A stretch of 64,000 nt of DNA from Rhodonellum psychrophilum GCM71 = DSM 17998 (GTDB lineage Bacteria > Bacteroidota > Bacteroidia > Cytophagales > Cyclobacteriaceae), in the NCBI RefSeq assembly GCF_000381545.1, contig NZ_KB906676.1, positions 1-64,000 of the forward strand, in the 5' to 3' direction. The position numbers and the translations under genes were made by a program. Below are positions 44,990-55,399 of the stretch, piece by piece. Below the pieces are notes generated by a model. It made no database searches and was not told the origin of the DNA. It saw only the letters and a list, made by a program, of their open reading frames with translations. Numbering within the stretch: position 1 is the first letter of the stretch; each line of letters opens with the position of its first letter.

Positions 44990-45021
44990 TTAATAGGGGT
45001 TAGTTTGAGTAGATGGTTTAA

Positions 45022-45399
45022 TTAGAAATGTCGTTTTTCCCGCCATCCCAAAAAGGCGGAATACCCAAGTACCACCGCAATGATCAAAAGACCGAAGGTT
45101 TCCCGGGCTTCCTCCATTTGGGGTGTTTTCATGGTGAGGTCTTTCTGTTCCAATTCCTGGCTGATCCATCCTGAAACAGATTCCGGGAAATAGTAAAGCG
45201 CACCAATAATACAGGCCAGGATAGCGATGGAAAGGGGAATGAGGGGATGCTTTCCACGGACAGCAAGTCCTGTAAATACCATGGCCGCCACATAAATGCT
45301 CACCCAGATTTCGGGGTCCGGATCATTGAGTTGGAAGTAGGCGAAGAGCAGGAAGATCAGGGTCCAAAAAATAAAGAAGTATTTTGGGAAGGCATGCAT
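45022..45399 (-). CDS. TMEM220-family transmembrane protein
   Basis: 125 aa with four TM helices (YFFIFWTLIFLLFAYFQLND, VSIYVAAMVFTGLAV, LIPLSIAILACIIGALYYF, TFGLLIIAVVLGYSAFLGW). FQLNDPDPEIW at the end of TM1 is the family hallmark. Unknown function. Precedes the NIPSNAP gene on the same strand by ~30 bp. Confidence 0.85.
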   Translation of the reverse strand: MHAFPKYFFIFWTLIFLLFAYFQLNDPDPEIWVSIYVAAMVFTGLAVRGKHPLIPLSIAILACIIGALYYFPESVSGWISQELEQKDLTMKTPQMEEARETFGLLIIAVVLGYSAFLGWREKRHF

Positions 45400-45496
45400 G
45401 GGTTTTGGGCTTGGGTATGTATTACTGGCAAATTGATATGTATAAATCTGGGCGAAATCCCCGTATCAATCAAGGTTTTCTTTTCTGAATTTTCTG

Positions 45497-45796
45497 CTAT
45501 CTGTTTTTCCAAACGTCCGGATTTCGGAAAGTATTGAACACAGCGCTAACGATGATCAACTCCTTTTTTTGATCCACCGTGTAATGGATCATAAAGGGGA
45601 ACCTTTTCAAGGGCAGACATCTGGTTTGGTCGTATCTGATTTGGAAAAATGACAAGTATTTTAATTTTTCAAACCCATCTTTTACTTCAAGATGAAACTC
45701 TTTTCCAAGGCCTTTTCTCTGTTTATTGTACCAATCGACACCTTCTTGAATATCTTGGTAGGCTTCACTATTGATTTGAATTTTGAAATATTTCAT
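45497..45796 (-). CDS. parE: RelE/ParE-family toxin
   Basis: 99 aa with the ParE fold pattern: INSEAYQDIQEGVDWYNKQ, GLGKEFHLEVKDGFEKL, QIRYDQTRCLPLKRFPFMIHYTVD (last strands) and FNTFRNPDVW. Probable gyrase- or ribosome-directed toxin. The antitoxin gene lies directly upstream on the same strand and overlaps by 4 bp (ATGA, 45793-45796). This is the start of an AT-rich accessory stretch. Confidence 0.9.
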   Translation of the reverse strand: MKYFKIQINSEAYQDIQEGVDWYNKQRKGLGKEFHLEVKDGFEKLKYLSFFQIRYDQTRCLPLKRFPFMIHYTVDQKKELIIVSAVFNTFRNPDVWKNR

Positions 45797-45999
45797 TCCA
45801 ACTTAAAAGTATCTTTGACGTCTTCCCAATTCAATAGGATTTCCGGATTTTCTTCCGATTTTCTAATTCTCTCCCTTACAATCTCCTTATGCGCCTCAGG
45901 GATTTCGAAATCATCGGATTTTTCCAATCCCAACTGTTCAAACAGTTCCATAAAGAAATCATATTTGTCATCAGGGATTCTCAAGGTCACCTCTCTCAT
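45793..45999 (-). CDS. ParD-like antitoxin of the RelE/ParE pair
   Basis: 68 aa from the ATG at 45999; a longer frame opens at 46035. It reads REVTLRIPDDKYDFFMELFEQLG, an RHH-like N-terminus, then an acidic C-terminal tail (HKEIVRERIRKSEENPEILL) that would wrap the toxin. Family name not fixed, but short size, 4-bp overlap and position identify it as the antitoxin. Confidence 0.8.
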   Translation of the reverse strand: MREVTLRIPDDKYDFFMELFEQLGLEKSDDFEIPEAHKEIVRERIRKSEENPEILLNWEDVKDTFKLE

Positions 46000-46193
46000 G
46001 GCTTTGTTGGTTTGATCGAAGTACAAGATAAGCAAAAATTTGATTCAAAGGATTTGGGTGAGGAGCGATCACTTTGTTTTCAGCCCTAAAAGGTTTCAAT
46101 AAGATTGGAGGTTAAAATCCCTACATTTATGGTGATTTGAATCCAATAAAATCGGTTGAGAAGGTTTCATTTTCTGACCACTTAAAAAAAAAT

Positions 46194-46307
46194 CTAATTC
46201 CACCCAGCTTTAAATCCTTCAACAAAAGCCTCCCAATTACGGACTAGATAAGCCAAATAAAAGAACAATACTAGTCCAATAAAAATCAATAAATATTTTC
46301 TTTTCAT
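46194..46307 (-). CDS. 37-aa single-TM protein
   Basis: A small ORF with one N-terminal TM helix (YLLIFIGLVLFFYLAYLV) and a tail with NWEAFVEGFKAGW. The NWExFxxG pattern returns in the 45-aa protein at 46915-47052. It lies near the double-glycine peptide locus. It may be an accessory or immunity-type small protein, but it is too short for certainty. Confidence 0.45.
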   Translation of the reverse strand: MKRKYLLIFIGLVLFFYLAYLVRNWEAFVEGFKAGWN

Positions 46308-46673
46308 CTCTTTAATAATTGATAATCAAAATGGAATTTCTGCAACAGTGCAAATGATTTTGGGTTAAAAATCTCTGTATAGTGAGTTGCTATTTTATTT
46401 ATCGCATTCTAGTTTTATTTTCGATTACAAATTGTAGTCTTGATTTACTTGTAGGTGTGAATATCAAATAAACTGCAATAATAGATGCCAACCCAACATC
46501 GGAATCTGCCAACCCAAAATCAAAGAAATCCTGTCTATTTTGAAAAGGCGGGTAATGACTAGCGAGAAGAAACCCTGAGAAATATAAAGTCACAATTTTT
46601 AAATAATGTTAAAATATGGGCCCATATAATATCGTTTTGGACATGATGATTTTTCCTTAAATTTTTTTTATAT

Positions 46674-46720
46674 AAAGATTGATGCTTATCCTTATTTAAA
46701 TAAGGAAAGCATCAATCTTT
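46674..46720. terminator. Long perfect hairpin (bidirectional terminator)
   Basis: AAAGATTGATGCTT (46674-46687) pairs with AAGCATCAATCTTT (46707-46720). The intervening 18 bases (46689-46706) are themselves a perfect palindrome TCCTTATTT/AAATAAGGA. The result is a 23-bp stem with one bulge and A/T-rich ends. Confidence 0.7.
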
Positions 46721-46914
46721 TTGTTAAATCAACCCGTAGGCCTGGAATTTGGGCCGTGTAATGCCGATTCGTGTGCTGGGGTTGCATCCTAATTTCTCTC
46801 AATTGGTTTGTATCAGTTCTGAATCGCTCAAATTTTCTAAATTTTCCCCATTAATTCGTTCTGTTATCAGTTACTTTTTCAAATTCTCTGAGATAATTAA
46901 ATCAAAAATCAACC

Positions 46915-47136
46915 CTAATTATAAACTCCCTTTTTTTCAACAGGTGGCTTACCATGAATTCCTCTTTTAAAATTCTCCCAATCATTGAAGATCGATATTG
47001 AAATAAGTAAGGAAACTATGATTATTAAAAACGAGATGATTTTCTTATTCATGATAGATATGGTTAAAATTAACACTTTATTGAATCCCTTAATTCTTTC
47101 CTTTTCAAATTCATTCAAACCTATAAACTTTTCCAT
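46915..47136 (-). CDS. 45-aa single-TM protein preceded by a leader-like remnant
   Basis: Minus-strand frame from 47136. The first ~17 codons (MEKFIGLNEFEKERIKG) look like a decayed double-glycine leader, and the second part from the ATG at 47052 is a TM protein (KKIISFLIIIVSLLISISIF) with NDWENFKRG. A functional product most likely starts at 47052. The leader-like part lies just downstream of a repeat that also precedes an intact double-glycine peptide (49227-49400). So this looks like a duplicated and decayed copy of that locus. Confidence 0.5.
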   Translation of the reverse strand: MEKFIGLNEFEKERIKGFNKVLILTISIMNKKIISFLIIIVSLLISISIFNDWENFKRGIHGKPPVEKKGVYN

Positions 47137-47245
47137 AATCTAAACACATTTCCATTCTCCCCCAATCTTTTCCGGGCATCGGGTGCTTCCAATCTCGCTC
47201 TAGCAAAGCGAATTAGCTAGCGGGGTGATTTGTTTTTGGTTATAA
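47137..47245. repeat. Copy 1 of a ~95-bp repeat upstream of GG-leader genes
   Basis: Matches 49401-49510 with high identity over ~75 bp (cores 47156-47215 and 49421-49480) and weaker flanking identity. It contains the last ~12 codons of an HTH-gene copy in degenerate form, then the spacer up to a leader start. It shows that HTH-spacer-peptide was duplicated as a unit. Confidence 0.7.
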
Positions 47246-47257
47246 ACTATACCGCTT

Positions 47258-47489
47258 GTCCCTACGGGACTTTATGGCATGGTGGCTATCCCCTTGTCAT
47301 GGATTGAAATGCATGGACTAATATATCGATCAATCCTACGGAGCTGTTGGAGAATACACTATCTATCTTGATCTACACAATCTATCAAAGCGCTCGTGCC
47401 AAAGTGCCAGCGGCACGAATGATTTAGTAACGTTGGGTTTCAACCCAGCGATAGAGAAAACTGCGATTAAGCTAAAGTCCCGTAGGGAC
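47258..47489. repeat. REP-like palindrome cluster
   Basis: A 17-bp sequence GTCCCTACGGGACTTTA (47258-47274) occurs inverted at 47473-47489. Between them are GTGCCAGCGGCAC (47404-47416, also at 55217-55229) and a TGGGTTTCAACCCA-type hairpin (~47434-47447). Typical of short dispersed intergenic repeats in Bacteroidota. No coding content. Confidence 0.6.
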
Positions 47490-47505
47490 GGAAGATATCA
47501 ATTTC

Positions 47506-48153
47506 TCACACTTCATAAAAATATACAGCTGGGATGATCAAGATAGCGTTATAAACACCATGAAAGATAATACCCCATTTCATGCCATAGTTCAACCTGA
47601 CATAGCTTAGCACCAGTCCAATCAAACACTGGGCACCCACCATAAATGGCACCCAATAGAAATATTGTGCATAATCAAAGTCCGTGAAATTCATCAGATG
47701 GACTAATCCAAATAATACTGAAGAGATAAAAATACTATATTTCAAATTCGGCATCTCACCCTTGTTAACCTTATACAATAAGAAAAACAACCAAATCCAT
47801 AGCAAAGCTACCGGTATCCAAACTTCACTGATCAATAATAAAGAGAGCCCTAAACCCCACCAAATAGATGATTTTTTAAAATCTAGGTGCAACCTATAAA
47901 TCGGTTCTTCCAACAATGGGGCAATTACGATGGCAAGTACAGCGACAAGCCATTTATTCTTTTTCAACAGAAACTCCAGTTTATGGTCAAACTGATCCAT
48001 CCCTGCCAAATCCAAAATAAATGCATAAGGAATCACAATGGCAAAAGTGATCAAAAGCAAAAAGAAGAATTCTTTACCTCTTATGTTTTCATAAGATTCC
48101 TTGTGATATGGGGATTTGAGAAAGGATTTTAGTTTGGTAAATGTTTGTGTCAT
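47506..48153 (-). CDS. CPBP-family intramembrane protease (gene 1)
   Basis: 215 aa with several TM helices and the three CPBP motifs: EEPIYR (E82, E83, R87), FGLVHL with the second-motif histidine, and FHGVYN with the third. Bacterial members (Abi/CAAX-protease homologues) are often immunity proteins of bacteriocins. It lies in an array with a second CPBP gene and two double-glycine leader peptides. Peptide immunity or processing is the likeliest role here; that is from context. Confidence 0.85.
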   Translation of the reverse strand: MTQTFTKLKSFLKSPYHKESYENIRGKEFFFLLLITFAIVIPYAFILDLAGMDQFDHKLEFLLKKNKWLVAVLAIVIAPLLEEPIYRLHLDFKKSSIWWGLGLSLLLISEVWIPVALLWIWLFFLLYKVNKGEMPNLKYSIFISSVLFGLVHLMNFTDFDYAQYFYWVPFMVGAQCLIGLVLSYVRLNYGMKWGIIFHGVYNAILIIPAVYFYEV

Positions 48154-48244
48154 TTTATTAAGACTTTCGAATGGGAAATTTCATATAGTTTAGTTTTAAG
48201 CTCGTTGTGTAGTATATTATTATTCGATTTAAAAATCTATTAAG

Positions 48245-48892
48245 TCAAAAATCTACCATTTGGGTTCTTATAAAATACACTATAAAAGGAAAAAGATTCC
48301 AAAACATATGAAGAAGTATTGATAGTACGATTCCCTTTTTGAAAAACACATAACAAAATAGTAGTCCGCCAAAAAATCGGGGTAAAAAAATGAAAACCAA
48401 ATTCTCGATATTATCATAACTCTCAAAAAAAATCACATGTAAAATTGCAAACATAAAAGAAGATATATAAACTAACGCCAATCTTTTTATTTTAAAATCA
48501 AGCTTTAAAAGAGTGAGTAGAATCAAGAAATATGACAGGATTACAAAAAGAACTACTAAACTAATATGAAATAATGTAATTGATGCAAGTATGGAAAATA
48601 ATAGGTTTTTAAACCTTAAATCATTGTGATATCGAAAAACAATTTCCTCTAGTATAGGTGCCAGAAAAACAACATTGATAAAAATTTTAAAGTAATTGTC
48701 TCCAGTAAATACCGGGCTTCCATTGTTGTTTTTTAGGTTGAAAAATATTAATTGAAATATTATAAAGAACAAAAATAGAAACCATTTAAATGCATATGCA
48801 TTTAAAAAAAAGTTCTTTCTTGAAGAAACAAAATGATTTATAACCTGATCTTTGGTTATAAATTTATAAAATTCCTTGCTGAATGCTAACAT
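48245..48892 (-). CDS. CPBP-family intramembrane protease (gene 2)
   Basis: 215 aa, unlike its neighbour in most positions but with the same motif spacing: EEIVFR (E82, E83, R87), FAILHV and LLHMFWN. Extremely AT-rich coding (phenylalanine, isoleucine, lysine, asparagine). It stands between the two GG-leader peptide genes (upstream, same strand) and CPBP gene 1. It may give immunity to the adjacent peptides. Confidence 0.82.
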   Translation of the reverse strand: MLAFSKEFYKFITKDQVINHFVSSRKNFFLNAYAFKWFLFLFFIIFQLIFFNLKNNNGSPVFTGDNYFKIFINVVFLAPILEEIVFRYHNDLRFKNLLFSILASITLFHISLVVLFVILSYFLILLTLLKLDFKIKRLALVYISSFMFAILHVIFFESYDNIENLVFIFLPRFFGGLLFCYVFFKKGIVLSILLHMFWNLFPFIVYFIRTQMVDF

Positions 48893-49057
48893 TTATTATT
48901 GTATTGAAAATTTATATATTTCATATTTACTATATTGATTTTCTAAATATGAAATCACAAAAAAAATTTTTAATTTTCAACCATTTTTGTTTTAGAAAAC
49001 AATTCAAAAATTGGGACAATAAATCAATTTGTAGATCTAATGCCCCAATTTATAACA

Positions 49058-49219
49058 TCAAAATATTGTCTTTATTACGTCAACTGTACAATCTGCCAGC
49101 CAGACTACGCAAGCGGCAGTTACTGCAACAAATTCTGCTGCAAAATAACCAGCTTTTTTGGCAAAAGATACCTCGCCACCATTAATGCTAATTAATTCGA
49201 AATTGTTTAACTCTTTCAT
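49058..49219 (-). CDS. Double-glycine leader peptide (bacteriocin/pheromone-like), 53 aa
   Basis: The leader MKELNNFELISINGG ends in GG after 15 residues. The mature part begins EVSFAKKAGYFAAEF and is hydrophobic, with two cysteines (C37, C44) that could form a disulphide. This is the classical class II bacteriocin leader exported and cleaved by peptidase-containing ABC transporters. It starts 7 bp after the stop of the other peptide. No transporter is in this window. Confidence 0.8.
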   Translation of the reverse strand: MKELNNFELISINGGEVSFAKKAGYFAAEFVAVTAACVVWLADCTVDVIKTIF

Positions 49220-49226
49220 GTTTCTA

Positions 49227-49400
49227 TTAATTTTGGTATTTGATATTATTAAATGCTCGCTCGAAAGCTGGACCTATATTTTCCGCAAATCCACTACCAA
49301 ACTCATACACTGCTTCTGTTATCCATAGTGGTCCTGTTAAAATCCATCCCCCATCAACCTCCACCATCTCCTCAAAACTCAACTCTTTTAAATTATTCAT
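49227..49400 (-). CDS. Double-glycine leader peptide (bacteriocin/pheromone-like), 57 aa
   Basis: Leader MNNLKELSFEEMVEVDGG (GG at 17-18), mature part WILTGPLWITEAVYEF and on to a 57-residue end, hydrophobic with charged C-terminus. It is the first of two peptide genes read from the HTH gene side, so the pair could be a two-component bacteriocin or a signal pair. No cysteine is in this one. Confidence 0.8.
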   Translation of the reverse strand: MNNLKELSFEEMVEVDGGWILTGPLWITEAVYEFGSGFAENIGPAFERAFNNIKYQN

Positions 49401-49510
49401 AATCTAATTAAATTTTCATTCCCCCCCAATCTTTTCCGGGCATCGGGTGCTCCCAATCTCGCTCTAGCAAACCGAATTAGCTAGCATGTTGATTTGCTGA
49501 TTGATCATAA
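49401..49510. repeat. Copy 2 of the ~95-bp repeat upstream of GG-leader genes
   Basis: The spacer between the HTH stop and the peptide start (49401-49476) plus the HTH 3' end. Core identical or nearly so to 47156-47215. Its conservation in a decayed copy suggests it is either recent duplication or a controlled leader region. Confidence 0.7.
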
Positions 49511-49839
49511 ACCAAAGAAAAGATAGTTCCGTCTAATAATTTAGACGCTGGAAGATAATTTGAAATTTTTCCAGCGGAGATCTTTCGTATTTCATCTGAT
49601 CCAAGAACCTTTAGAGAAAACACCACAGATACACCATTACAATTTTCATAAACAAATGAATTTGATCGCTTTGAAAACCTAATCTCAACCCCCTCATCTC
49701 TCAATTCATCCAGCATCAAATACAACTTTGCTCTACTTACCCCCAACCTCTCTGCAAATTCTTCTGGACTTCCAGTTCGCTGTTCCTTTACCAATTTGTT
49801 CAGCAGCTGCAATCTCTCTATTTGTTTGATAAATTCCAT
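49477..49839 (-). CDS. HTH regulator upstream of the GG-peptide genes
   Basis: 120 aa. N-terminal HTH (LLNKLVKEQRTGSPEEFAE, then RLGVSRAKLYLMLDELRDEG, an HTH_11/DeoR-like pattern), followed by a ~60-aa C-terminal part (FSLKVLGSDEIRKI). It is 76 bp upstream of the peptide gene on the same strand. It probably controls the peptide operon. Comparable HTH-GG-peptide pairs are frequent in Bacteroidota genomes (known from pattern, not checked). Confidence 0.7.
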   Translation of the reverse strand: MEFIKQIERLQLLNKLVKEQRTGSPEEFAERLGVSRAKLYLMLDELRDEGVEIRFSKRSNSFVYENCNGVSVVFSLKVLGSDEIRKISAGKISNYLPASKLLDGTIFSLVYDQSANQHAS

Positions 49840-50612
49840 GGTCTAGTTAATTTAGTTATTGGTTGATCAGTTGAATTGGTTAAAAGGTTAGAAAATTGTA
49901 AGGTTAGAAGGTGAGGCTGACGAAGGCTGGCATTGTAGATAAATTTGGACTTCACACTTATCCTTGAATCATATACCTCGACAGTGTTTTGGATGATTGA
50001 AGCCGGGAAAATTTTGTCGCTCATAAAAAGTGAATTTTATAATTTTAAAAACCGATTAAATTTAAAAAGGAAAACCTTGAACTGTGATCAGGGCAATCAG
50101 GAAAAATTTGCTGTCCTAACCCAAATCGTAAATTGCCAAACAAACGGTTCCCCGCATGAGCCCCATTTCCAACCGTAAAGGGGGCGCAAATAATTTCCAA
50201 AGCACAGTCTGTCAGAAGTTCAGACAAATGCAGAGAACTAGGTTTAAATAATACTATAAATCAATAAAAAAGCTTAAGTCTAAATGCTTGGGTAAAAAAA
50301 TTATAATCCGAAAAAATTAATTTTCAAAATCCGCTTTCTTGGAAACCTAAGGAATTAAATGATATTGCGCTTTTTGGGGGTTGTTTTTCAGAATTTTATT
50401 TTAAAAAAGTAGTTCAAGCGGTGACTAAAAAAAATAATATTCGGTTTGCGTTCAAAAAATAGCGGGTTTCCCCTCTTTTTAAAATATTAAAAAATAGTTG
50501 AATACTTTATGTTCTTTTGAGATGGGACGCTGTTAAATAATGAGTTAAGTAAAAGCAACAGAAACATACCGAAACCGCTCCTTTCCCATCTCCGTATTCA
50601 AATCCCACTTGC
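49840..50612. other. 773-bp intergenic region
   Basis: No convincing gene on either strand. A few short frames of <80 codons lack any signal or start support. AT-rich toward the LutC end. Confidence 0.4.
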
Positions 50613-51176
50613 TCAGACCAATACCACCTTCAAGCTTCTCGCTCCTTGCGCACCGATGACCAGGGATTGCTCAATATCCGCCGTTTTGGAAGGGCCTGCG
50701 ATAAAGACGCCAAATCCCGAGTGGTTGTTGTCCATCCTTTCATAGGCGGCGTGCATGTTGCCCAGTAGGTTGTCGATGGACAAAACCACGATCAGGTGAT
50801 CCGTGATAAAGGGCAAAACCCGATGGATAAGATCTTCTTCCTCAAACCAAATCGCTCCGTTTTCGGCAACGCCAAATTGTCCCTGGACTATCGCAAGGTC
50901 CAAATCATTCAGCGCATGCGGATCTTGTGGAAGCTTAAAGGTGTTGAATTTTCGATAAGCCTCGATCGGGGAATATCTTTTTGGGAAATCAGCCGATGCC
51001 ATGATTTCCATAAAACCTTCCTGCGTCAGGATTTCACCTTTGTTGGAAAGGATGGCCTCGCAAAAAGTTTTCTTCAAATCTGCCGGATGTGCGAATTCAC
51101 CAATGGTGGGCAAGGGGATTTCAGTCCTTTTGACGGCCCTGATTTTCGAAAGGATATTGTCTTTGGAGTTGTTCAT
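50613..51176 (-). CDS. lutC: Lactate utilisation protein LutC
   Basis: 187 aa from the ATG overlapping the lutB stop (51176); a longer frame opens at 51197. LUD domain: FMEIMASADFPKRYSP near the N-terminus, VQGQFGVAENGAIWFEE and GPSKTADIEQSLVIGAQGARSL at the end. Third subunit of the LutABC L-lactate oxidation complex; last gene of the operon. Confidence 0.92.
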   Translation of the reverse strand: MNNSKDNILSKIRAVKRTEIPLPTIGEFAHPADLKKTFCEAILSNKGEILTQEGFMEIMASADFPKRYSPIEAYRKFNTFKLPQDPHALNDLDLAIVQGQFGVAENGAIWFEEEDLIHRVLPFITDHLIVVLSIDNLLGNMHAAYERMDNNHSGFGVFIAGPSKTADIEQSLVIGAQGARSLKVVLV

Positions 51177-52534
51177 TTTCTGTTTTTTTCGTACCAATTC
51201 CTAAAGGATTCCTTTGGCAATTCGGGTAAATCCCTTCCTTTTCCCCAAGTGTTCAGGCCACTGTAAGTCACGCTTTCAGGCAGGATCTTTAAGGCGCCCC
51301 GCATCATTGCCCCCGAAACGTGATAAGCAAATGGGACGGAAAAAATACCGTTGGCGATCTTCATCGCGATGCTCTTTCCATTTAAGGCAGACTGGGACTT
51401 GGTGATTTCCTGGCGCCACTCATAGAGTTGCTCGTGGATGTTGATCTTGACGGGGCATACATCGGTACAGCTGCCGCAAAGTGTCGAGGCAAAAGGCAGT
51501 GAGCTGTGTTTTTGCAGGTCGATGCCCGGGGAAAGTATGGATCCTATCGGTCCGGGAACCGTGCTTTTGTAACTGAAACCGCCACTTCGGCGGTAAATGG
51601 GGCAGGTATTCATACAGGCGCCACAGCGGATACATTTCAGGGAATTCCTGAATTTTTCCCGGCCGAGTTGTGCCGTCCGGCCATTGTCCACCAAGATGAG
51701 GTGGATTTCTTTTCCCACTGCAGGACTTCTGAAATGGGAATTGTAATTGGTGATGCTCTGTCCTGTGGCCGATCTGGCCAATAAGCGCAGGAATACGCCG
51801 AGATGTTCCCTTTTCGGAATGATTTTTTCAATGCCCATGCAGGCGATATGGACATCGGCCAAATGTACGCCCATATCCGCATTGCCTTCGTTGGTGCAGA
51901 CAACGAATTCACCTGTCTCGGCGACACCGAAATTCACCCCGGTGACCGCCACTTTGGCGCCTAAAAATTTTCCCCGAAGATGGACTCTCGCCGCTTGGGT
52001 CAAGTAAGTCGGATCGTCGTTTCCTTTTTCCGTTTGGAGTTTTTCATGGAAAATGTCCGATATCTGGCCTTTTTTAAGGTGAATGGCGGGGAGCACGATA
52101 TGGCTCGGGGCCTGGTTCAAAAACTGAACAATCCTTTCTCCCAAATCTGTATCCACGACTTCGACGCCGTTTTTTTCCAAAAAAGGATTCAAATGACATT
52201 CTTCGGTCAAAATCGATTTGCTTTTGACGATCGCTTTGCATTTTTTATTCTTCAGGATTTCCAAGACAATCTTGTTGTGCTCTTGAGCATCCTTCGCCCA
52301 ATGTACTTGGATGCCGTTTGCCACCGCATTTTTCTCAAATGCCTCCAAATATACTTCCAGTTGGGAAAGGACATTGTCCTTTATCTGGGAAGCCAATTCT
52401 CTCAGCTCTTCCCATTCAGGGACGGTTTTGGAGACTTTGTCGCGCTTGTCTCTCACAAACCAAAGGGTCTCGTCATGCCACTTGGAGGTGGCTTTGTCCT
52501 TGAGAAATGCTTCTGCTTCGACGGGATGGCTCAT
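51173..52534 (-). CDS. lutB: Lactate utilisation iron-sulfur protein LutB
   Basis: 453 aa: LUD domain (~60-300, with TGVNFGVAETGEFV), then ferredoxin-like clusters CIRCGACMNTCPIYRR and CGSCTDVCPVKI for two 4Fe-4S centres, then a C-terminal DUF3390-like tail. Central subunit of LutABC oxidising L-lactate to pyruvate. Overlaps lutA by ATGA (52531-52534) and lutC by ATGA. Confidence 0.95.
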   Translation of the reverse strand: MSHPVEAEAFLKDKATSKWHDETLWFVRDKRDKVSKTVPEWEELRELASQIKDNVLSQLEVYLEAFEKNAVANGIQVHWAKDAQEHNKIVLEILKNKKCKAIVKSKSILTEECHLNPFLEKNGVEVVDTDLGERIVQFLNQAPSHIVLPAIHLKKGQISDIFHEKLQTEKGNDDPTYLTQAARVHLRGKFLGAKVAVTGVNFGVAETGEFVVCTNEGNADMGVHLADVHIACMGIEKIIPKREHLGVFLRLLARSATGQSITNYNSHFRSPAVGKEIHLILVDNGRTAQLGREKFRNSLKCIRCGACMNTCPIYRRSGGFSYKSTVPGPIGSILSPGIDLQKHSSLPFASTLCGSCTDVCPVKINIHEQLYEWRQEITKSQSALNGKSIAMKIANGIFSVPFAYHVSGAMMRGALKILPESVTYSGLNTWGKGRDLPELPKESFRNWYEKNRK

Positions 52535-53286
52535 GATAAGGCTTCGTTTAGGATTTCACAAACGTGTTTGAATTGGAGATCTTGTTTGTTTCTTTTCGCA
52601 ATTCCCTGAAGATGCATCAGGCAGGACATATCCGCTCCAGCCATGATTTCGACGCGATGCCCAAGGTGATCGGCGATGCGGTCTTTTCCCATTTGGATGG
52701 ACAAGGCCTCTTCGGTGACGGCAAAAGTCCCGCCGAATCCACAGCACTCGTCCGGTCGGGTCAGTTCCACCCATTCGATGCCTTCAAGTTGCGTCAACAG
52801 CTGTTTTGCCTTCCCAAAAGGAGCTTCATTGAGCTCCGAGGAGGAGGAAAGTCTCAGGCCTCTTTGTCCATGACAACTGGAATGGTAACCGACCTTGTGG
52901 GGATATTTCCCTTCTATTTTGGGAATTTTCAGTACGTCCACGATAAATTGCGTCACTTCAAAAATCTTGTCATGCAGTTCCTTTTGATCCTTCTCCAAAC
53001 CAGGAACCTGGGGAGAATGTTCTTTGACATGCAGTACACAGCTGCCGGAAGGGGCCACGACATAATCATAATCTTTGAAGGTGCGGATAAAATGGGCAGT
53101 GGTGCCCAAAGTGTCTCTTTCAAAACCTGCATTGGCCATGGGTTGCCCACAACAGGTCTGTCCCATGGGATAGGTCACGTTGCAACCCAATTTTTCCAAT
53201 AGTTCCAAAGTCGAAATGGCTACCTGAGGATAGAATTGATCCACATAGCAGGGGATAAAAAGGGCGATTTTTTTATTTTGCACCAT
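52531..53286 (-). CDS. lutA: Lactate utilisation protein LutA
   Basis: 251 aa with two CCG domains: CCGQPMANAGF and CCGFGGTFAVTEEALS, plus CYVDQFYP and SCHGQRGLRLSS that complete heterodisulfide-reductase-like cysteine clusters. First gene of the LutABC operon. Confidence 0.95.
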   Translation of the reverse strand: MVQNKKIALFIPCYVDQFYPQVAISTLELLEKLGCNVTYPMGQTCCGQPMANAGFERDTLGTTAHFIRTFKDYDYVVAPSGSCVLHVKEHSPQVPGLEKDQKELHDKIFEVTQFIVDVLKIPKIEGKYPHKVGYHSSCHGQRGLRLSSSSELNEAPFGKAKQLLTQLEGIEWVELTRPDECCGFGGTFAVTEEALSIQMGKDRIADHLGHRVEIMAGADMSCLMHLQGIAKRNKQDLQFKHVCEILNEALS

Positions 53287-53599
53287 AAATTTTAGACAGA
53301 AGTCTGGAATAAATGAAATTGGTGGATATTGATGGTCAACGCATCCGCCGGCTTAGGTAAAGATGGATTGATCTTTTTCTGAAACCAAATATAGAAATCC
53401 AAATAGATCCCAATTCAAATGAATCAAAATGCCAGTCTTTGGGACTTCAGGTATAAAAATAAAGAAAACTAATTGAATGGATATCCTGTACTGTCATGTG
53501 TTTTTGGTTTGGGGATAATTAAGATTTGAAGTCAGCGTGGACGAATGTAGAATCCCGAAAATTGGTGGTTGGATCAGTAGGCTTTCATTCGGAATTATT
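53287..53599. other. 313-bp intergenic region before lutA
   Basis: Promoter region for lutABC and end of the neighbouring ATPase gene. No clear GntR/LutR box is identified and no gene is seen. Confidence 0.35.
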
Positions 53600-54733
53600 C
53601 TAGATTCCAACGAATCCCTCAAAATCCTTTTTGCTGACCACAGCCGTTTGGTGCTCCGAATAGGCTTGGAGAAAGGATGCGGGGAACCTCACTTTTTGCT
53701 CTTTCCACTTGATTGCGAAGGCATGAAGAATCCCATCCTCTTCTTCAATATAATCGATCTCGGCCCTGTCATGGGTTCTCCAAAAATGGGTATTGACAAA
53801 CCTTCCGTTATATTGGTTTTGTTTCAATCTTTCCGAAATCAGAAAATTCTCCCACAAAGCCCCTTTGTCCTGTCGCATTTCTGGTTGTGAGAAATTACTG
53901 ATCAGCACATTCCGGATTCCGTTATCATAGAAATAATACTTCTTACTCTTCTTGATTTCATTTCTCAGGTTGCGGCAGAATGCAGGAAGTTTGAAAATGA
54001 CAAAGGCTTTTTCCAACAAATCCAGGTATTTTTCCACCGTCAGGGTATCGATATTGCCGATAGTCTGGGCCAATTCATGGTAACTGACCTCACTGCCAAC
54101 CTGGAATGCCAGAGCACGCAAGAGTTTGTCGATATGGCTTGGTTTTCGGATGTTGTCCAACTGCAAAACATCCTTGTACAGATAGCTTTGTGCGATTTCT
54201 ACCAAGATTTCCTTTTCATTTCCAGGGTTATTGATGACTTCGGGATAGCACCCATAGATCAACCGTGTGTCCAATAGTCTTTTGGCTTCCATTATTGAGG
54301 TATGGTTTACTGTTTCTTTGAAGCTGATTGGATAAAGATGGAAAGTGTTTTTTCTACCGGTCAGCGGTTCTGCAGTTTGGTTTTGAAGGTCAAAAGCGGA
54401 AGATCCGGTAGCGATGATTTGAATGTCAGGCCAATTGTCAAAAATAAGTTTGAGCTTCTTTCCGATATCCGGAATCTGCTGCGCTTCGTCAATGATGACC
54501 AAATTGTGGTTGGCACCGATAAGCCGGATCAATTGGGTGCTGGTGGAAGCAGAAGAAAATGCCTCCAGAATATCCGCTTCATCGGCATTGAACCAAACGG
54601 AAGGCGTATTCAATTGCTTGACAGTTTCCTTAAGCAGTGTGGTTTTTCCAACTTGACGCGGACCCAAAAGCAGTATGGTTTTGCCCTTGAAGCAGGAAGA
54701 AACAAGCTTTTCCAAGATTGATTTTTGAATCAT
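53600..54733 (-). CDS. AAA ATPase with DUF4143 (ATPase/nuclease-like regulator)
   Basis: 377 aa: AAA_14 N-terminal domain with Walker A LLGPRQVGKTTLLKE (~22-36), LVIIDEAQQIPDIG (Walker B), TGSSAFDL; DUF4143 C-terminal domain (~200-377) with a PD-(D/E)XK-like RAEIDYIEEEDGILHAFAIKWK segment. Function of these common stand-alone ATPases is unsettled. It lies behind two palindromes (54765-54827), suggesting self-control. It is not linked in function to the rhamnose or Lut operons. Confidence 0.88.
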   Translation of the reverse strand: MIQKSILEKLVSSCFKGKTILLLGPRQVGKTTLLKETVKQLNTPSVWFNADEADILEAFSSASTSTQLIRLIGANHNLVIIDEAQQIPDIGKKLKLIFDNWPDIQIIATGSSAFDLQNQTAEPLTGRKNTFHLYPISFKETVNHTSIMEAKRLLDTRLIYGCYPEVINNPGNEKEILVEIAQSYLYKDVLQLDNIRKPSHIDKLLRALAFQVGSEVSYHELAQTIGNIDTLTVEKYLDLLEKAFVIFKLPAFCRNLRNEIKKSKKYYFYDNGIRNVLISNFSQPEMRQDKGALWENFLISERLKQNQYNGRFVNTHFWRTHDRAEIDYIEEEDGILHAFAIKWKEQKVRFPASFLQAYSEHQTAVVSKKDFEGFVGI

Positions 54734-54764
54734 CTTTTGCTTAATTTTGATTCAAGACACTGAA

Positions 54765-54827
54765 TTTTTAGATTGTAATCTAAAAAATAGGCCTAATATT
54801 TAGATCGTAATCTAAATATTAGGCCTA
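54765..54827. promoter_or_regulatory. Two tandem palindromes upstream of the AAA/DUF4143 gene
   Basis: First site 54765-54786: TTTTTAGATT-GT-AATCTAAAAA. Second 54788-54827: an 18-bp arm (54788-54805) with its exact reverse complement (54810-54827) around CGTA. Both share the core TTAGATyGTAATCTAA. They begin 32 bp upstream of the ATPase start on the minus strand; probable operators. Confidence 0.65.
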
Positions 54828-55399
54828 AAATTTTGATTTGGGATCGGTTTGACTCACCAACCCGAGTGAAGGTTTTGTCTATTTTGAAAAAAGATATGTC
54901 TGATTTATGAAGATTTTATTTTTGAGATAAATGTCTCTTATCTTTAAGTTTCTCAAGTATTTGCTTTAAAGCTGTTGAAAATAATTTTGTTAAGTCCGGA
55001 ATATTGGATTCCAAGAGAAAAATATTTGGCCCATCCCTATGGGATTTTACTAAAGAGTAACCCTAATTTCCGGGGATTTAAAATCCCGGGTTAAGATTTC
55101 TGGCATCGCTATGCGATTGAAAAAATGATACTTACCGACAAAAAGCCGTAGGCTTGAATCAACTCTTAACCCCACAATTCATTGTGGGGAGAGGAGAAAA
55201 CAATCTCTCAATAAAAGTGCCAGCGGCACGACAGAAATTCCCCCTAAAAGATCAATGTGAGAAGAGGCCATTGCAATCTCACCGTTTTCGAAAAGACAAA
55301 TAAACTTGCAGATAAATAAGTTGTTTTACCGTTTGGCGATACGGTTTAAAAACATATACATGCATAAAAGAGAATATCCATTTCAGGATAAATTCCCTC
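54828..55399. repeat. Intergenic region with REP-like palindromes
   Basis: Contains GTGCCAGCGGCAC (55217-55229), the hairpin CCCCACAAT-TC-ATTGTGGGG (55170-55189), a CCGGGGATTTAAAATCCCGG stem (~55070-55089) and ATCCCTATGGGAT (55034-55046). The same kind of cluster is at 47258-47489. No gene. Confidence 0.55.

Follow-up and report, generated by a model that had tools for sequence, protein, structure and literature searches.

A likely exporter-less remnant of a double-glycine peptide operon in Rhodonellum psychrophilum and the leader-like C-terminus of its regulator

The peptide locus that we analysed in Rhodonellum psychrophilum GCM71 = DSM 17998, within a stretch of 64,000 nucleotides referred to here as the window, is derived from an operon that relatives usually carry in the order hlyD, PCAT (the C39 peptidase transporter), HTH regulator, and cassettes that combine double-glycine (GG) peptides with membrane proteins, CPBP or other. 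The copy in the window looks like an exporter-less remnant, which may keep immunity. On balance we lean toward a reading in which it is what is left of a variable, class IIb-like GG-peptide operon of the Cyclobacteriaceae, where in intact relatives an HTH protein read by PCAT couples transcription to export.

Architecture of the locus

All elements of the locus lie on the minus strand, and the gene content listed in the first-pass annotation, i.e., an HTH gene, two double-glycine peptides and two CPBP genes, was recovered in full by open reading frames and profile matches. The regulator, predicted from profile matches and AF2 fold to be a winged-helix (HTH_11/BirA-like) protein of 120 aa, is encoded at 49477..49839; its C-terminus holds a leader-like stretch, LKVLGSDEIRKISAG (residues 76-90, 49570..49614), marked by a [GA]G column and by leader spacing, followed by a tail of 30 aa past the AG site (49480..49569) that is set apart by its divergence in the family. 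Overlapping the HTH stop is the first copy of a conserved 5' element, delimited by alignment and covariation (49414..49485, candidate hairpin 49425-49447), and then come the GG peptides P2 (57 aa, 49227..49400; leader MNNLKELSFEEMVEVDGG, ...EEMVEVDGG) and P1 (53 aa, 49058..49219; leader MKELNNFELISINGG, ...FELISINGG), separated by seven bases. Two CPBP membrane protease homologues, CPBP1 (48245..48892) and CPBP2 (47506..48153), stand directly downstream of the peptides, as had been proposed, at positions outside the interval 49058-49839 to which the whole group had been assigned.

A second cassette starts with copy 2 of the 5' element (47150..47221, hairpin 47161-47183), recognized by its identity to copy 1, and continues with a decayed peptide gene (46915..47136) whose leader ends in KGF instead of GG and which resembles positions 5271-5396 of L037 (50% identity, E 3e-12), one of the loci of other genomes denoted here by L numbers. 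Further on, a 37-aa ORF at 46194..46307 (…NWEAFVEGFKAGWN), matched at 38% in L056 (E 6e-7), is a possible relic of a GG-type peptide. On the other side of the HTH gene, the first ~30 codons of hlyD are left at 49935..50024. Two adjoining small ORFs at 45497-46035 (99 and 80 aa) have, by eye, the look of a ParE/RelE-type toxin and its antitoxin, and the interval 47240-47500 is an intergenic repeat with short palindromes, whose matches in L037 (8073-9457) recur every ~254 bp.

Peptides and CPBP proteins

Both peptides have the profile of double-glycine substrates, each with a short N-terminal leader that ends in GG and has hydrophobic residues at -15, -12, -7 and -4 (P1 MKELNNFELISINGG, P2 LKELSFEEMVEVDGG), and they are adjacent, as in class IIb pairs. 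P2 scored above the cut-off of the NCBIfam class IIb bacteriocin model (TIGR03949, 24.0 vs. 21.5) and P1 narrowly under that of the bacteriocin-signal model (TIGR01847, 15.5 vs. 15.7); a match to lactococcin G-beta, also class IIb (NF038034), was below its cut-off. Mature class IIb peptides are cationic and a net negative charge is unusual among them, whereas the predicted mature peptides of the window have net charges (K+R minus D+E) of -1 for P1 and -2 for P2. Cysteine is absent from P2 and occurs twice in P1.

Under a loose regular expression, a leader ORF appeared in 4 out of 405 random opposite-strand stretches of 1.3 kb from the relatives' loci, as compared to two within 350 bp in the window. 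Homologues of P2 and P1 are found in conserved order in L037, L038, L040, L043, and L055 (49-65% identity for P1), and dN/dS against the L038 pair was 0.27 for P2 and 0.11 for P1, rough values with dS >1. Taken together, the random stretches, the homologous pair in five relatives and the dN/dS values indicate that the two leader ORFs are more than a product of chance. CPBP1 and CPBP2 belong to the CPBP (Rce1-like) family according to Pfam (35.9 and 28.4 bits against a PF02517 cut-off of 22.4). A CPBP1 homologue lies 3' of the P2-P1 pair in L037, L038, L040, and L043, while CPBP2 is 89% identical to its L038 homologue, with a dN/dS of 0.058, and has further homologues (47-86%) in L037 (partial), L042, L043, L053, L054, and L056. 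The CPBP proteins, CPBP1 included, probably serve immunity.

The operon in relatives and the loss of the exporter

The HTH protein was detected in 144 of 390 family genomes (E<=1e-4); 60 loci from 59 of the 144, taken by search rank and leaving out a second copy in G259, made up the family sample, and a scan of named genomes gave 23 loci in Belliella, Algoriphagus, Cyclobacterium, Lunatimonas, Cecembia, Indibacter and other genera, which we take to be Cyclobacteriaceae. A PCAT gene or fragment stands upstream of the HTH gene in 53 of the 60 loci, ending 20-230 bp before it in 52, and is itself preceded by hlyD; the reference pair, from L098, comprises a Pfam HlyD_3 protein (48.6 bits) and a transporter with C39 and ABC domains. 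Right behind the HTH gene, many of the 60 loci have one or two GG-leader peptides, after which membrane proteins, of the CPBP type or other, follow in differing combinations; the CPBP gene comes first in some, L054 and L056 among them. L038, L039, and L052 have in common a near-identical 61-aa peptide with its 260-aa neighbor, and the PCATs of L038 and L052 are 98% identical with HTH domains only 63% identical. Modules therefore seem to be exchanged, and regulator alleles seem to have been swapped independently of the exporter.

Other neighborhoods were recognized by eye. L092 and L096 combine a distant (29%) PCAT upstream, an HTH protein with a C-terminal GG and, ~3.4 kb on, a LanC-like protein of 409 aa, with a Cys-rich GG precursor also in L092, which suggests lanthipeptide clusters. 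In L062, L065, and L071 two M16-peptidase-like genes stand 0.8-2.1 kb behind a PCAT and a GG-tailed HTH protein, with a GG ORF in between only in L071.

The transporter census covered 44 of the 60 family loci, and hlyD and PCAT were both full-length in 36 and defective in 8. L037 is left with hlyD 1-109 and PCAT 332-716, L043 with hlyD 1-259 and PCAT 504-716; PCAT is in two pieces in L040 and L080 and a fragment in L055, and no exporter was found by the census in L039, L050, and L074. Of the exporter genes, the window retains only hlyD residues 1-30 (66% identical to L098 HlyD), with no PCAT match at E<=1e-4 and hence without the dedicated PCAT of a class IIb locus. Candidate PCAT remnants were rejected, the best tblastn E being 0.16, and two faint PCAT-like matches (E 0.45), collinear and close to the HTH gene on its upstream side, are likewise too weak to use. 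From 73 bp upstream of the HTH gene onward, the sequence is again homologous to L037. Gene content and order thus reveal a deletion from about hlyD codon 30 to near the HTH start, which took the exporter and left the regulator, the peptides and the CPBP genes.

A transporter elsewhere in the genome had been named in the first-pass annotation as the check on its proposal, a check that the proposal only half passes. A genome-wide PF03412 search pointed to two places, both on contig C18, which also account for all C39 matches at E<=0.001: a PCAT gene with its peptidase and ATPase parts in different frames, and a frame of 89 aa. Export of P1 and P2 from the source strain is therefore doubtful, their own hlyD-PCAT being deleted and the remaining C39 matches being a split gene and a short fragment. 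Contig C18 (L006, L007) also encodes six GG peptides, with leaders of another type ending in KITGG or NITGG, interleaved with proteins of ~380-420 aa; they adjoin the two-frame C39 transporter and an HlyD-like gene, all labels but that of C39 having been given by eye.

The conserved 5' element

The block GCTAGCTAA...GAGATTGGGAAAACCCAATGCCCGGAAAAGGTTGGG precedes the first peptides of cassettes, also of those that lie away from the HTH gene. In the window, the second block (47136-47221, HTH-end/5'-UTR) is 92% identical to copy 1, which matches nothing else in the genome at E<=1. The alignment (A3) included 29 of the 30 collected copies, L057 being left out. Here a 6-bp helix is 95.4% paired, with 10 double-change cells compared to 2.4 in shuffles (0/500), and the covariation of the hairpin was reached by 0/500 shuffles on three of five measures, with weaker results for pairs with a double change (24/500) and for pair types (96/500). 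An alternative hairpin, ATTGGG/CCCAAT, was discarded, as it is 84.6% paired with zero double change and shuffles score as high. No Rfam match was obtained within the element at E<=1, the one sub-threshold match lying elsewhere (47477-47500). The element may act as a regulatory RNA, as an operator or as a block of recombination.

The regulator and its C-terminal site

The HTH protein of the window scores 23.1 bits against PF08279 (HTH_11; cut-off 25), and 33 of 35 chosen family members match this model at E<=0.01. AF2 predicts a winged helix, with block pLDDT of 80-93 for residues 1-60 and of 85 and 69 for residues 61-80, and the best structural matches (TM1602, CggR, and NiaR) have middling Z scores of 7.1-7.6, a range below Z 8 in which maybe only a common arrangement is shared. 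Compared with L038 and L037, dN/dS is 0.012-0.015 over residues 1-78; for the whole protein it is 0.047-0.068 (vs. L037 and L038). The regulator is thus strongly constrained with respect to relatives though its PCAT is gone, implying that part of its role is independent of PCAT or that the loss is recent.

C39 domains read positions -15, -12, -7, and -4 together with GG (PMC7018657), and the LahT co-crystal is described with L at -12, E at -8, hydrophobic residues at -7 and -4, then GG, the segment from -11 to -4 forming a short helix (PMC6363468). A similar stretch is found here, but at the C-terminus of a DNA-binding protein. One C-terminal column holds [GA]G in 53 of 61 HTH proteins (42 GG and 11 AG, the window having AG). 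Among the 61, unselected for the site, its Gly ranks 13th in column conservation, and none of the other 24 leading columns lies past window residue 62, while alignments A1 and A4 consist of [GA]G-bearing HTH proteins alone, so that their invariant Gly (G90, G89) is there by choice and is not evidence. Residues of the set LIVMFWYA occupy -15, -12, -7, and -4 in 49, 52, 32, and 52 of the 53 proteins and an acid occupies -8 in 44; positions between these key ones are rarely hydrophobic, -13 excepted, and the leader profile is largely present across the family, partially at -7 (32/53). Peptide leaders of the same loci gave 61, 60, 55, 59, and 55 of 65 at -15, -12, -7, -4, and -8, counts partly built in at -12, -8, -7, and -4, since the leaders, a few of which may be chance ORFs, were collected with a regular expression demanding residues near those positions, though not at -15. 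Part of the pattern in the HTH proteins may be driven by the fold, as the final strand of the winged helix includes -15 and -13.

A position weight matrix (PWM) of the peptide leaders, which includes the GG itself, places its best site at the [GA]G column in 50 of 61 HTH proteins, only 26 of which 61 are clearly above the 99% shuffle level; the window, at 1.6 against a level of 1.7, is a weak example. A loose leader motif was present in 58 of 81 HTH proteins, as compared to 0.039 per 110 residues in 272 other ORFs, and the NCBIfam bacteriocin-signal model picked 1 of 35 (E 0.0056). Fuller matches occur in other Cytophagales, namely LSEDEMEKITGG, LSKDDMEKISGG, and LSLDEMANIKGG, some of them beside peptides with LSLNEMAAVNGG or LSLDQMAVVKGG. 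AF2 predicts a helix over residues 81-87 of the window protein (-10 to -4, block pLDDT 66) and a short one from -10 to -7 in the HTH protein of L166 (pLDDT <60).

Past the Gly, the tail measures 2-41 residues and diverges faster than the rest of the protein over the family, with a median tail identity of 29% in 36 pairs whose N-parts are 80-90% identical. Between the window and L037, L038, L040, and L041, dS is 0.03-0.26 for the tail and at least 0.74 for the winged helix, with one saturated value; the low tail figures suggest constraint on, or exchange of, the DNA itself, which fits the overlap of the tail with the 5' element. A peptide gene nested in the HTH 3' end was considered and dropped, no internal start 12-24 residues before the Gly being shared: ATG, GTG or TTG occurs there in 37 of 53 HTH proteins, 60 times in total (1.13 per protein vs. 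1.02 expected) and at no position in more than 17 of 53. The HTH proteins of L076, L077, and L078 end before the GG site, and yet all three loci keep PCAT and leader ORFs.

Across 106 loci, 63 of 69 HTH genes with the site and 9 of 37 without it had a PCAT directly upstream or a GG-leader ORF directly downstream (Fisher 2e-12), L050 being counted as site-less though it carries ISAG. By tier, the proportions with and without the site were 51/52 vs. 6/9 in the family, 6/9 vs. 2/11 in the order (20 of the 43 non-family genomes, each represented by a single locus) and 6/8 vs. 1/17 in the class (25 of 49, L225 and L233 being left out as family genomes). The samples were drawn by search rank and kinship was handled through identity clusters rather than a tree; majority scoring gave 30/33 vs. 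7/32 in 65 clusters at 70% identity and 15/17 vs. 5/26 in 43 clusters at 50% identity (p = 1e-5). Before the motif was widened and PCAT adjacency was added, a stricter version that scored only leader ORFs had given 41/58 vs. 7/23.

Discussion

The locus has its closest likeness in class IIb systems of the lactobin A/cerein 7B type (TIGR03949), with which it shares two adjacent small GG-leader genes and, in relatives, PCAT and HlyD, while it departs from them in its Gram-negative host, net negative peptides, several cassettes per locus, winged-helix regulator and deleted exporter. Of the two-peptide bacteriocin with CPBP immunity suggested in the first-pass annotation, the paired GG peptides, the adjoining membrane proteins, the cassettes varying among relatives and the PCAT in the gene row of most of them are borne out; the lost exporter and the negative charge of both predicted mature peptides speak against it for the window itself. 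Nothing in these data favors the contact signal that the same annotation offered as an alternative, and the leader-like C-terminus of the HTH protein and the decayed second cassette were not part of that annotation. In the pneumococcal blp locus, too, variable bacteriocin and immunity genes have a PCAT as neighbor, and some of the strains carry it in broken form (PMC12150690). Here, in contrast, the regulator is of another type, a repeated 5' element marks cassette starts, and no second ComAB-like exporter is shown. Bacteroidetocins, GG peptides of Bacteroidota with PCAT and at least two Cys, are described in four-gene regions with a TM protein and a thiol oxidoreductase and no obvious immunity gene (PMC6671954), as opposed to the HTH and CPBP cassettes of our locus, where no such TM protein or thiol oxidoreductase neighbor was recognized by eye among the ORFs at 45000-55000. 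A survey of Bacteroidales RiPPs reports an HTH gene in a cluster without PCAT (PMC10352776), and among the titles and abstract openings listed for open-licence papers none mentions a regulator that bears a GG leader, which is weak evidence of absence.

In the mechanism that we propose, the HTH regulator of intact relatives would control the cassettes, and its C-terminal leader-like segment would be bound, and perhaps cut, by the C39 peptidase of the neighboring PCAT. An idle PCAT may hold or process the regulator, and a PCAT busy with peptide leaders may release it, so that transcription would follow export capacity. The source cell, on the other hand, probably keeps immunity and does not export the peptides.

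Other explanations of the leader-like site were weighed. The HTH protein may be a precursor, cut by PCAT after the GG so that its tail is exported to act as a signal or toxin and the DNA-binding part remains inside like a leader, and in this respect the tails are indeed more variable than the N-part, as cores are with respect to leaders, L062, L063, L065-L067, L069, and L070 have PCAT and HTH with no leader ORF within 1.3 kb, and a split-substrate model has been put forward, in general form, in a paper on HetC (PMC10986499). Nonetheless, tail lengths from 2 to 41 residues, the persistence of PCAT and leader ORFs where the HTH protein stops before the site (L076-L078), and the low dS of tail DNA in the window and near relatives, which overlaps the 5' element and whose sequence may follow a DNA constraint, make a precursor decidedly unlikely. 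The GG may instead be a structural turn of an ordinary regulator, with a coincidental or vestigial leader likeness that PCAT never touches, as the winged-helix fold with its low-confidence tail, the HTH_11 matches and the weak PWM score of the window would have it. This we consider rather unlikely, given that the spacing matches at -12, -8, -4, -2, and -1 and that the site tracks the PCAT/GG-peptide neighborhood outside the family as well (6/9 vs. 2/11 in the order and 6/8 vs. 1/17 in the class).

Regarding the state of the locus, an exporter deletion, a decayed second cassette and exporter defects in 8 of 44 relatives are what would be expected of decaying debris with no present function, but dN/dS is 0.047-0.068 for the HTH protein (vs. 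L037 and L038) and 0.058 for CPBP2 (vs. L038), and we hold plain debris to be improbable on these values, in pairs that include time before the deletion. The peptides might also still be active and leave the cell through another ABC transporter of the genome, where further ABC exporters are present (the best 33% identical to the PCAT query), much as pneumococcal BlpAB-negative strains still use ComAB (PMC12150690); with the two-frame gene and the 89-aa frame as the only C39 matches in the genome (E<=0.001), such a route appears very unlikely. An exporter-less remnant, with a PCAT-read regulator in intact relatives, is the reading toward which we lean. Its extension to a winged-helix regulator family across Bacteroidia, bearing a C-terminal double-glycine leader read by the adjacent peptidase-transporter, with the peptidase as the sensor that sets bacteriocin transcription, is possible but tentative.

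Cells that export peptides need synthesis matched to export capacity and, if the proposal is true, a regulator carrying the export tag of the cargo directly links transporter load to transcription. Repeated loss of the exporter, with the regulator, the peptides and the likely immunity genes kept, would parallel, in Gram-negative bacteria, the polymorphic exporter of pneumococcal blp loci.
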